Positions 47,829 to 51,004 of a DNA stretch of 51,385 nt are shown piece by piece. The notes under the pieces were generated by a model. That model was not told where the DNA came from, did no database searches, and saw only the letters and a list, made by a program, of their open reading frames with translations. The number at the start of each line of letters is the position of its first letter. The first letter of the stretch is position 1. This DNA is from Acidimicrobiia bacterium. Lineage in GTDB: Bacteria > Actinomycetota > Acidimicrobiia > Acidimicrobiales > Poriferisodalaceae. The stretch is from the NCBI GenBank assembly GCA_012960315.1, contig DUBN01000091.1, positions 1 through 51,385 of the forward strand, read 5' to 3'. A program made the position numbers and the translations under genes.

Positions 47829-49085
47829 TCAACCTTTTGCGCGTCCTGCGTAGCCAAACAATTTTCCGGCTACCTTCCGTATCTGTATTTCCTCAGCGCC
47901 TTCGGTTATGCGATAACGCCGGTGGTGTCTATAGATGTGTTCGAAGGGCATGCTTCGGCCATATCCGACTCCTCCACAACTCTGCATGGCCCGATCAGCG
48001 GCGTCGCAGCAGAATCTGTTTCCCCTGTAGTTACACATGGCCACACGATCGGTTATCTCCATGTGGTCTGTGCCTTGGTCCATTTCCCAAGCGGTTTTCC
48101 ATATGAGGGCCCTGATCATTTCCGCTTCGGTATACAACTCGGCCAGGGGAAATTGGATTGCTTGGTTTTGAGATAACGGCTTTCCGAAGGTTGTTCTACC
48201 GTTCACGTAGTCCACGGCTACGTCAATGCAATGGAGACCCGCGCCGACTGAAGATGCGGCTTGTCGGATTCGGTTCTCGTGAACGAAAAGCTGGGCGGTT
48301 TGCAGGCCTCGGGCTTCGTCTCCGAGAATGTCGCCGTTGTGAACTCGCACGTCGGTCAAGCGAACATGAGCATGGTCTGTTGGCATGTTGAAGGTCCACA
48401 TGAACTCTTCGACTTTGAACCCAGGCGACTCCACCGGGACAATGAAACAGGTGATCCCATGGCCCTCTCCAGGATTCCCCGAAGTCCGGGCAAAGATATA
48501 ATCGTGTGTCGCGTGGTGGAGTCCGGTATTCCAGTATTTCTCGCCGTTTATGACCCACTCGTCGCCGTCGCGAACAGCGGTCGTTTCCATCCAAGTCGCA
48601 TCAGAGCCATGAAGCGGTTCCGTTAGCCCAAACCCAATACGGGCTGTTCCCTCGAGGATCTTTGGTATCCACTTTTGTTGTTGGTCCTCTGAACCAAATT
48701 TTTCCATCATCAACACCGTGGGAAAATTTCCGATGATCGAATTCTCATTTTGTAAGTCGTTATGGAGGCCGAGTCCTTTACGAGCCAAATGTTCCCGCAC
48801 GATGGCCATCCCCAAATTGGTGCCATCTTTCCCACCGAAACGTTTCGGGAGATGCCATCGCAGGAAACCTGCCGCATCGGCTTCCGTTCGCATTCTTCCC
48901 AGAAGCTGTTCCCACTCTGCGTTAGGTAGACCATCCCGGTCCCAGTCGGTACGGGAGTCTTCGCGGCGGTGATCGAAGAATCGAATGTTGTCGTTTTCAT
49001 TTTCTATCGGCTTGATTACGTCTTCGATGAACTCATCAAGATCGTCAAGTAATTGTTGAATGTCGTTAGGAATAGCGAAGTCCAT
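47829..49085 (-). CDS. Acyl-CoA dehydrogenase family protein, FadE-like
   Basis: This 418-residue protein has FGLTEPLHGSDATWMETTAV and VINGEKYWNTGLHHATHDYIFA in the middle domain, and FGKPLSQNQAIQFPLAEL plus YRITEGAEEIQIRKVAGKLFGYAG at the C-terminus. It is closest to the long, C-terminally conserved acyl-CoA dehydrogenases of actinobacteria. The start ATG 49085 fits homologues; a longer frame begins at 49115. The gene is divergent from the predicted selenoprotein, with a 28 bp gap. The ribosome site is weak. Confidence 0.9.
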   Translation of the reverse strand: MDFAIPNDIQQLLDDLDEFIEDVIKPIENENDNIRFFDHRREDSRTDWDRDGLPNAEWEQLLGRMRTEADAAGFLRWHLPKRFGGKDGTNLGMAIVREHLARKGLGLHNDLQNENSIIGNFPTVLMMEKFGSEDQQQKWIPKILEGTARIGFGLTEPLHGSDATWMETTAVRDGDEWVINGEKYWNTGLHHATHDYIFARTSGNPGEGHGITCFIVPVESPGFKVEEFMWTFNMPTDHAHVRLTDVRVHNGDILGDEARGLQTAQLFVHENRIRQAASSVGAGLHCIDVAVDYVNGRTTFGKPLSQNQAIQFPLAELYTEAEMIRALIWKTAWEMDQGTDHMEITDRVAMCNYRGNRFCCDAADRAMQSCGGVGYGRSMPFEHIYRHHRRYRITEGAEEIQIRKVAGKLFGYAGRAKG

Positions 49086-49113
49086 AGGCAGCGAACGTAT
49101 ACCGTCGAACCTC

Positions 49114-49719
49114 ATGGTGTTGCCGATTGTTGTCTGGTCGGACTTTCTTTGACCCTGGTGTCACTTGGCGCGGGCCCGTGCGGCTCGCCTCGAAGCACGA
49201 CACGAAATTGCCGTTTCATGGTTGCCATATGAATTGCACCCTGAAATTCCAGATGGCGGTGTACCCAACGAACGCCAGTTCTCAACTCTTCAGCCGATAG
49301 CGGAAGAACTAGGGGTAAGATTGGTGCCGCCCAATCGGTTCCATCCAACGAGGCGAGCCCATCAGGCTGCCCTCGTCGTGGAATATGCCTCACCCAAAGA
49401 GGCAACCATTTACCACGACCGAATTTACGCCTCAGTTTGGGAAGATCAGCTAGATATAGAAAACCCTGAGGTACTCAGCGAGTTGGCCAACGACTTAGCC
49501 GTCCCCTCAGAGATCATTAGGCGGGTAGTTAGCAATGACGAGTTGTGGCCAGCAGTGGTTTCCTCAATGGAAAGAGCCCACGAATGGGGCGCTACCGGTA
49601 CCCCTAGCTGGGTAATCGACAACAAACTTATGGTTCCCGGTCTACAAGATGACGACTTTTTTGACCGGGTAATCGAACGTTTAGCCGTCATTAAAGACAG
49701 CGAAGAGCATTCAGGATAA
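49114..49719 (+). CDS. Predicted selenoprotein: FrnE/DsbA-family thioredoxin-fold oxidoreductase with UPWC motif
   Basis: DsbA/FrnE proteins carry a CPWC redox site after strand 1. The frame from ATG 49114 reads VLPIVVWSDFL, then TGA (49150-49152), then PWCHLARARAARLEA, and continues through SWLPYELHPEIPDGG and TGTPSWVIDNKLMVPGL, both typical of FrnE. The TGA falls on codon 13, exactly the first Cys of CPWC, so it probably encodes selenocysteine (UPWC). Read through, the protein has 201 residues, the family length. A plain reading would start at TTG 49165 and lose both strand 1 and the redox site. A bacterial SECIS-like hairpin follows. Sec machinery is not in the window. Alternatives are a nonsense mutation or a base-call error. 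Confidence 0.85.
49150..49152 (+). other. Predicted selenocysteine codon (in-frame TGA)
   Basis: The TGA is codon 13 of the FrnE-like frame and replaces the first Cys of the CPWC motif, followed by Pro-Trp-Cys. The frame is otherwise open from 49114 to 49719. Sec at the first position of UxxC sites is a known pattern in redox selenoproteins. Confidence 0.8.
49167..49189 (+). promoter_or_regulatory. Candidate bacterial SECIS hairpin
   Basis: Downstream of the TGA the sequence can fold as GGCG (49167-49170) pairing with CGCC (49186-49189) and GCC (49174-49176) with GGC (49182-49184). This leaves a five-base loop CGTGC with G as the second loop base, 26 nt after the TGA. A rival fold pairs GCGCG (49168-49172) with CGTGC (49177-49181) around loop GGCC, with G as the first loop base. 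Both satisfy the usual bSECIS rule of an early loop G at this distance. GC-rich DNA can fold by chance, so this is supporting evidence only. Confidence 0.5.
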
Positions 49720-49753
49720 TCATCTATGTCTAGGCCTTGGTACTGTCCTCGGT

Positions 49754-51004
49754 ATGCAGCCAACCTATTCAGATGATGTTGAGGTCTACCGGGGCAAGAT
49801 CCAGGAATTCATCACGGAACATTTGCCCGCCAACTGGGAAGGCATCGGGTCGCTAACTGGAAATGCCAAAGCCGAGTTCGTTGGTGAGTGGCGGAAAATT
49901 CTCGGCGAAAATCACTTACTGGCGACGATGTGGCCCACTGAATACGGGGGCCCCGGACTGACAGTTAACGAAAATGTGATTATCGCGGAAGAATTCACCA
50001 AGGCCGGATTGCCAACCGGTGGTTCGAACGACGGTTTCGGGATCGGCATGGTCGGCAACACCCTGATCGAATGGGGAACCGAAGAGCAAAAGAAGCACCA
50101 CCTTCCCCGAATCCTGGGTGGAGAAGATCTTTGGTGCCAGGGGTATTCAGAACCAGGAGCAGGTTCCGACCTAGCCAACCTTGGATTCCGGGCAGAGCTT
50201 GATGGTGACGAATGGGTTCTGAACGGACAAAAAATCTGGACATCAAGCGGACATTTAGCGAATTGGATTTTCGTTCTTGGTCGAACTGCCCCCGAGCACG
50301 CGAAACACCAAGGCATCACTTTCTTTCTGTGCCCGATGGACCAAGAAGGAGTCGAGGTTCGACCGATCGTAAATATCGCAGGTCATAGCCATTTCAACGA
50401 AGTCTTCTTCTCAAATGCGAGAGTGCCCAAGGAGAACGTTGTTGGCCAGGTAAACGGTGGATGGGCTGTAGCGATGACTCTGTTGGGTTACGAGCGTGGT
50501 TTTGGCGCGACGACGACTTACTTTCGTTATCGAGCTGAACTAGATCGCTTGGTCGAGATGGCCCAACAACGCGGTCGGACAGAGGAGGCAACTATCCGCC
50601 AGCGGTTGGCCTGGTGTCATAGCAAAGTAGAAATCATGCGGTGGCTTGGACAGCAAGTCCTCACTTCTTTCTTGAATGGCGAACCGCCTGGACCGAAGAG
50701 TTCGATTGGCAAGCTCAACTGGAGTGAATACCACCGAGAGGTCACTGAACTGTCACTCGACATTCTTGGTGCCGACGCAATGGTGGTGGATGGCGACGAT
50801 GCTTTAGCTGCGGGTTTAGGAGCCGCCGATGCGGGCACCCCGAACACGACTTCAGCCTGGATCAATAGCTTCCTCTCTGCGAGATCTGGAACGATCTACG
50901 CCGGTACTAGCCAAGTGCAACGCAATATTATCGGCGAACGGATTTTGGGTTTGCCCAAAGAACCGCGAGCCGATGAAGGGCCTTGGAACGAAACGCCTCG
51001 CTGA
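49754..51004 (+). CDS. Acyl-CoA dehydrogenase (FadE-like)
   Basis: This 416-residue flavoenzyme has WCQGYSEPGAGSDLANLGF and WVLNGQKIWTSSGHLANWIFV in the middle domain, then VAMTLLGYERGF. At the C-terminus SGTIYAGTSQVQRNIIGERILGLPKEP is the usual ending. The start ATG 49754 follows the predicted selenoprotein by 34 bp on the same strand, so they are probably co-transcribed. The uridine kinase follows at once. Chain specificity is unknown. Confidence 0.93.
   Translation: MQPTYSDDVEVYRGKIQEFITEHLPANWEGIGSLTGNAKAEFVGEWRKILGENHLLATMWPTEYGGPGLTVNENVIIAEEFTKAGLPTGGSNDGFGIGMVGNTLIEWGTEEQKKHHLPRILGGEDLWCQGYSEPGAGSDLANLGFRAELDGDEWVLNGQKIWTSSGHLANWIFVLGRTAPEHAKHQGITFFLCPMDQEGVEVRPIVNIAGHSHFNEVFFSNARVPKENVVGQVNGGWAVAMTLLGYERGFGATTTYFRYRAELDRLVEMAQQRGRTEEATIRQRLAWCHSKVEIMRWLGQQVLTSFLNGEPPGPKSSIGKLNWSEYHREVTELSLDILGADAMVVDGDDALAAGLGAADAGTPNTTSAWINSFLSARSGTIYAGTSQVQRNIIGERILGLPKEPRADEGPWNETPR

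Follow-up and report, generated by a model that had tools for sequence, protein, structure and literature searches.

We identified a gene for a predicted selenoprotein in a 51,385-nt stretch of DNA from an Acidimicrobiia bacterium of the Poriferisodalaceae (contig DUBN01000091.1); this whole stretch is called the window below. The gene (49114..49719, + strand) would encode a selenocysteine (Sec)-containing, FrnE-type oxidoreductase of the DsbA family, probably cytoplasmic, and it is highly probable that its UGA codon 13 is read as Sec by the organism's own SelA, SelB, SelD and tRNA-Sec, aided by a hairpin. This reading is built on sequence evidence: a TGA conserved at the redox codon, protein-coding sequence before and after this TGA, cysteine at this codon in the two next nearest orthologues, the Sec machinery in the genome, and a predicted fold like that of FrnE. 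The same evidence supports the initial annotation of the window, which had predicted a selenoprotein here.

The reading frame and its U-P-W-C site

We found that only one TGA (49150..49152, + strand) interrupts the frame 49114-49719. The read-through product has 201 residues, MVLPIVVWSDFL-U-PWC-HLARAR..., with the predicted Sec at residue 13, in the first position of the U-P-W-C motif. The second position of the redox pair, residue 16, is a cysteine encoded by TGT (49159..49161, + strand), which is invariant in the 13 rows of our alignment A1, and the translated sequence has no cysteine other than this one. An ORF finder that respects stops takes the TTG at 49165..49167 (+ strand) as the start, and the active site would then be lost. 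Both points had been made in the initial annotation and were confirmed: the TGA lies at the first Cys of the CPWC motif, between the ATG at 49114-49116 and the end at 49719, and the TTG start is a product of mechanical ORF calling that lies past the active site. The read-through product matched the Pfam DSBA family with an E value of 1.8e-25. No NCBIfam model matched it above the cut-off (best 20.6 vs 190 bits), so genes of this kind are probably mis-annotated in many genomes.

Conservation of the TGA codon among orthologues

A search of 39 genomes of the family gave 56 matches in 37 genomes, 54 with one TGA and two without. The nearest 30 orthologues, a set that includes the window's own copy and spans six genera at 51-100% identity, all have TGA at this codon (30/30), and the TGA is for this reason more than a chance stop. 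The two stop-free matches are next nearest (40-41% identity) and carry TGT (L077) and TGC (L078) at the same codon. The comparison of homologues at this codon that had been proposed as a check thus came out in favour of Sec.

The other 24 matches form a second group (23-30% identity) found in 24/39 family genomes, each with one TGA. Eight of these 24 were checked, including the second copy in the source genome, and all eight have the TGA at the same motif. This second copy (G000:C73:34590-35207, L074) is itself a DsbA-family selenoprotein gene by prediction, 27% identical, with U-P-W-C and its TGA at about 3618. Our searches of the open-licence literature found no report of such a second Sec paralogue within one genome.

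We also scanned further genome contigs and found 25 loci, with TGA in 25/25. Nineteen of them (L049-L067) are named Acidimicrobiales or other actinobacteria, among them several 'Candidatus Microthrix sp.' UBA bins; these add names and no new sequences, because from the TGA onwards their genes match 19 of the 30 orthologues without any difference. The remaining six (L068-L073) are Sec-containing FrnE-type proteins in Dormibacterota or Chloroflexota records.

In a sample of the phylum, 119 of 396 genomes had a match with an E value of at most 1e-15. Thirty loci were fetched and gave 29 rows, namely the window's own, 13 with Sec and 15 with Cys, and one locus (L105) yielded no row by the motif search. 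The 13 Sec rows fall in four other families (f26, f35, f40, f51). A tree of 74 distinct rows, 57 with Sec and 17 with Cys, left after 20 duplicates were dropped from 94, required 5 Sec/Cys changes vs 15.6 with shuffled labels; relatedness alone clusters such labels, and long branches make the deep joins of the tree unsure.

Coding nature of the stretch before the TGA

The likely start codon is the ATG at 49114..49116 (+ strand); ATG or GTG stands at the same codon in 18/30 family orthologues. In ten others, all of genus g7, an ATG follows after two more codons, and the remaining two read ATC-TTG. We compared substitutions in 28 of the 30 orthologues (two rows with N were dropped, here and in the analysis of synonymous constraint below), and found a pN/pS of 0.246 over the 10 codons before the TGA vs 0.193 over the 29 codons after it. 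The wrong frames of the same pre-TGA stretch gave 3.2 and 0.99. Coding selection is therefore seen on both sides of the TGA.

An AlphaFold model of the protein (mean pLDDT 91.8) has a strand at residues 3-9, before the Sec position, and a helix at 14-29, after it. A strand, then the redox site, then a helix is the usual thioredoxin-fold arrangement. The upstream segment had been taken in the initial annotation for the first strand of the fold, and the model bears this out.

Selenocysteine machinery in the genome

The source assembly (2.82 Mb in 91 contigs, given as 96.55% complete) contains a tRNA-Sec scoring 65.1 bits against a gathering score of 47, and ARAGORN calls the same tRNA as SeC with anticodon tca. 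It lies on a contig of its own among the machinery genes (G000:C25, L001), near a sigma-factor-like reading frame. The selA (395.5 bits) and selB (284.4 bits) genes adjoin each other on another contig (G000:C58, L075), on the same strand, and both score above their cut-offs. The selD gene (370 bits, above cut-off) has one in-frame TGA. By prediction, the product of selD (G000:C4:3866-4801, L076) is a selenoprotein itself, and the context of its TGA, GAG-U-ACK, serves as an internal positive control for Sec reading in this genome. All four components that had been listed for a check (selA, selB, selC as the tRNA-Sec, and selD) are thus present above their cut-offs.

Across the family, tRNA-Sec was found above the cut-off in 34/39 genomes and at 64 bits or more in 32/39. 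Among the 30 genomes with a TGA orthologue, 25 have a match of at least 64 bits; G008, G013, G032, G033 and G034 (completeness 74-92%) have none at that score, a point against the Sec reading, and the match in G033 reaches 51 bits at a contig end. In 14 control genomes, the tRNA-Sec, selB and selD models all matched at lower scores, and above the cut-off in 5, 2 and 2, respectively. Since controls also give such weaker matches, our calls rest on the scores above cut-off and on ARAGORN.

A candidate SECIS hairpin downstream of the TGA

A candidate bacterial SECIS hairpin was located at 49170..49188 (+ strand), with a 7-bp stem (49170-49176/49182-49188) and a 5-nt loop, CGTGC (49177-49181). The second base of the loop is a G (49178), 26 nt past the TGA. 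What speaks most strongly for an RNA element is the synonymous constraint on the loop codons, read from the sequences of 28/30 orthologues: codons +8, +10 and +9 rank 1, 2 and 3 of 82. These three codons make up the loop and its closing pairs, and GCC is used in 27/27 Ala codons and GCG in 27/28. In 26 sequences, 91% of the alignment cells of the stem pair vs 30-50% when the partner strand is slid. Against the hairpin, it is the minimum-energy fold in only 21/30 orthologues.

Folding energy and covariation were both rejected as proof of a SECIS. The energy is ordinary in the window (z -0.69 when 28 nt are folded and -0.20 with 51 nt) and ranges from z -1.28 to 0.26 over seven folds. The covariation of 26 sequences is not above shuffles (242/500 reach the score), and that of 15 sequences is slightly above (19/500). 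An Rfam scan of 49000-49400 gave three matches, none near its gathering score. One locus of a divergent species (L065, which carries the same gene as L036) does not form this stem and has another stem at about that place, with the loop GGUC. The hairpin had been described as GC-rich, with an early loop G 21-26 nt downstream: the stem and its loop G at 26 nt stood, and the fold is not beyond chance by energy. The proposed bSECIS check had a similarly divided outcome, with the loop G and strong synonymous constraint on one side, and ordinary energy and a 26-sequence covariation not above shuffles on the other.

Other readings of the TGA

In one genome, a lone stop in an intact frame would look the same if a FrnE gene were decaying and the stop were a nonsense mutation or an error of sequencing. 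This has next to no probability, given the TGA in 30/30 orthologues from six genera, down to 51% identity and with low pN/pS. The longest frame that obeys the stop starts at TTG 49165, and its product would be truncated and lack the active site, the frame upstream being open by chance. However, the ten codons before the TGA are protein-like in this frame only and encode the opening strand of the modelled structure, and relatives have possible start codons upstream of the TGA; we consider a TTG start extremely improbable. Both the TTG start and gene decay were rejected because the stretch ahead of the TGA shows protein-like evolution, relatives have possible starts upstream of it, and the model has the thioredoxin-like arrangement.

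The weakly supported hairpin would also agree with a TGA that encodes some other residue, such as Trp or Cys, or is passed in a regulatory manner with no Sec inserted. But all four Sec genes are in the genome, selD has the same kind of TGA, and the codon falls exactly at the redox Cys, where the next nearest orthologues have cysteine, so we regard this as very improbable. The reading as Sec is the one used below.

Assignment to FrnE and likely chemistry

In a profile search of solved proteins, FrnE of Deinococcus radiodurans came first (E 1.5e-29), followed by SCO1869 (2.8e-23). FrnE also leads the fold search made with the predicted model (Z 24.8, rmsd 1.9, 196 aligned), ahead of SCO1869 (Z 22.1) and then a putative disulfide isomerase, 2-hydroxychromene-2-carboxylate (HCCA) isomerases and kappa GST (Z 19-21). 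With the single sequence, the order was SCO1869 (8.6e-9), the HCCA-isomerase-like protein 3FZ5 (8.9e-9) and FrnE third (8.8e-7). FrnE is thus the nearest solved relative by profile and fold, though third by single sequence, and the family identity given in the initial annotation is supported by the first two.

HCCA isomerases and kappa GST follow closely in the fold search, one such protein takes second place by single sequence, and acyl-CoA dehydrogenases are encoded next to the gene. All this could point to a Sec-containing isomerase or transferase of that type, with a CoA compound or an intermediate of ring cleavage as substrate, in place of a general disulfide oxidoreductase. We consider this unlikely, as FrnE has the better score in both the profile and the fold search and the CxxC is kept as UPWC or CPWC. 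HCCA isomerase and kappa GST are not known to have a CxxC.

Taking the protein as a FrnE-type oxidoreductase, we compared it with characterized relatives. D. radiodurans FrnE (DR0659; PDB 5CNW, 5CO3, 5XWH), the best match by profile and fold, has Cys where the window protein would have Sec. The active site of Deinococcus FrnE is described as CP(W/F)C, against UPWC here, and D. radiodurans FrnE has a C-terminal CXXXXC that the window protein lacks (PMC8945050). The latter motif occurs in many FrnE proteins but not in all and does not define FrnE, because the FrnE proteins of S. roseofulvus and D. maricopensis also lack it (PMC8945050). FrnE is a predicted cytoplasmic thiol oxidoreductase of the DsbA family; the D. 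radiodurans protein has disulfide isomerase and insulin-reducing activity, and disrupting its gene raises the sensitivity to cadmium and diamide (PMC8945050). The S. coelicolor (Streptomyces) protein SCO1869 (PDB 3GL5) is a DsbA oxidoreductase with CPWC, comparable to UPWC in the window protein, but it is a Cys enzyme with a chain of 239 residues vs 201. The DsbA-like oxidoreductase Rv2466c (PDB 4NXI, 4ZIL, 5XUR) has the same overall fold at Z 14.3-14.7, clearly below FrnE. Rv2466c is mycothiol-dependent. The source genome encodes MshA-like (361 bits) and MshC-like (422 bits) proteins; as both scores are below the curated cut-offs, mycothiol as the reductant is a suggestion.

The predicted sequence begins directly at the first strand of the fold. 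In the mechanism that we propose, Sec would be inserted in the cell at the UGA of codon 13, and the hairpin just downstream may act as the SECIS that aids insertion. The product would be a cytosolic selenol/thiol oxidoreductase in which U13 attacks and C16 resolves. The U13-C16 pair would cycle between the selenol/thiol and selenenylsulfide forms and thereby reduce or isomerise disulfides. Adducts of low-molecular-weight thiols, plausibly mycothiol, may be alternative substrates, and a physiological partner might be found in the neighbouring acyl-CoA metabolism.

Gene neighbourhood and a possible acyl-CoA link

An acyl-CoA dehydrogenase gene (47829..49085, - strand) is divergent from the Sec gene and adjoins it in 29/30 family loci; L039 is the exception, with its match 1.3 kb away. 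From where the similarity of relatives begins, 49085 is likelier than 49115 as its start. Another acyl-CoA dehydrogenase gene (49754..51004, + strand) starts 34 nt past the stop of the Sec gene. Its best NCBIfam match, the pimeloyl-CoA dehydrogenase large subunit, scores 242.6 bits, below the cut-off of 623.85. Also nearby are genes for an alpha/beta hydrolase and for HadA- and HadB/MaoC-like dehydratases, and downstream a uridine-kinase-like gene. The names of these neighbours come from Pfam, with NCBIfam matches below their cut-offs.

The downstream dehydrogenase is present in 19/30 family loci. Of the others, L037 lies on a contig that ends too soon to show it, and ten loci of genus g7 have none, two of which have under 300 nt of downstream sequence. 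Both Cys orthologues are followed by it in the same orientation, at distances of about 0.2 and 0.75 kb. Among the six loci from Dormibacterota or Chloroflexota records, L070 (Chloroflexota) has a 40%-identical acyl-CoA dehydrogenase 12 nt past the Sec gene match, and the others have no match to either dehydrogenase. No dehydrogenase match at E 1e-5 was found at the loci of other families of the phylum (L087-L115, mostly with 1.5 kb flanks) or at those of the second Sec group (L074, L079-L085). The acyl-CoA link is therefore a property of this clade and not of Sec-FrnE in general.

This adjacency points to acyl-CoA metabolism, which is short of proof of joint function. We put forward, as a tentative idea with the odds somewhat against it, that the protein works specifically for a pathway of acyl-CoA dehydrogenases and not as a general stress oxidoreductase.

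The divergent genes start 28 bp apart, and the palindrome GTATAC between them (49097..49102) is separated from each start codon by 11 bases. It is kept in 20/30 family loci. GTATAC is a possible shared -10 element of a symmetric two-way promoter, which would give nearly leaderless transcripts. A sigma-70 scan of 49000-49800 gave no promoter-like match.

Relation to known selenoproteins

Nine DsbA-like selenoproteins with UXXC were reported under COG2761 in a Sargasso Sea study of 2005 (PMC1088965), and COG2761 is FrnE in two other papers (PMC1978522, PMC6316421). The Sargasso Sea family has Sec in UXXC and a downstream hairpin, and the passages on the family name no host lineage (PMC1088965). 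The window gene resembles that description, with a predicted Sec in UPWC and a candidate hairpin. FrnE (DsbA) is listed as a selenoprotein family in SelenoDB 2.0 (PMC3965025). A 2016 study counted 45 DsbA-like selenoproteins in 41 bacteria (PMC5029168). A 2026 review distinguishes DsbA-like form 1 (PF01323, UxxC) from form 2, named crotonase/enoyl-CoA hydratase family protein, and records DsbA-like selenoproteins in Asgard archaea (PMC13188914). The name FrnE is absent from the main text of the papers on microbial selenium use that were queried (including PMC1088965, PMC5029168 and PMC13188914). Among Archaeplastida, Sec-containing FrnE is described in Mamiellophyceae and M. viride (PMC6627142). 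By that description, the algal proteins share the name FrnE and the Sec with the window protein, but they are eukaryotic. Sec-FrnE of eukaryotes (green algae) depends on a different SECIS type and machinery.

The initial annotation had held that a FrnE-type selenoprotein in this kind of actinobacterium may be new. The novelty is limited, because DsbA-like selenoproteins of COG2761 date from 2005 and Sec-FrnE is a named family, also known from SelenoDB 2.0 and algae; what stands is the host, as Sec-FrnE in this actinobacterial family was not found in print in the open-licence literature. The same literature gave no report of a conserved linkage of Sec-FrnE to acyl-CoA dehydrogenase genes, and no paper that combines selenoprotein, DsbA, acyl-CoA dehydrogenase and selenocysteine.

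Taken together, our data suggest that an actinobacterial family, many of whose members are known only from metagenome bins, uses Sec in FrnE-type redox proteins, whose active site is lost when genes are found by respecting stops. Proteins of this kind are already known, and the present one would gain in interest if a functional tie to acyl-CoA metabolism were established. The conserved neighbours give a testable guess on the substrate of the enzyme. If the protein does serve such a pathway, these Acidimicrobiales would require selenium for the breakdown of lipids or for another route of acyl-CoA degradation.
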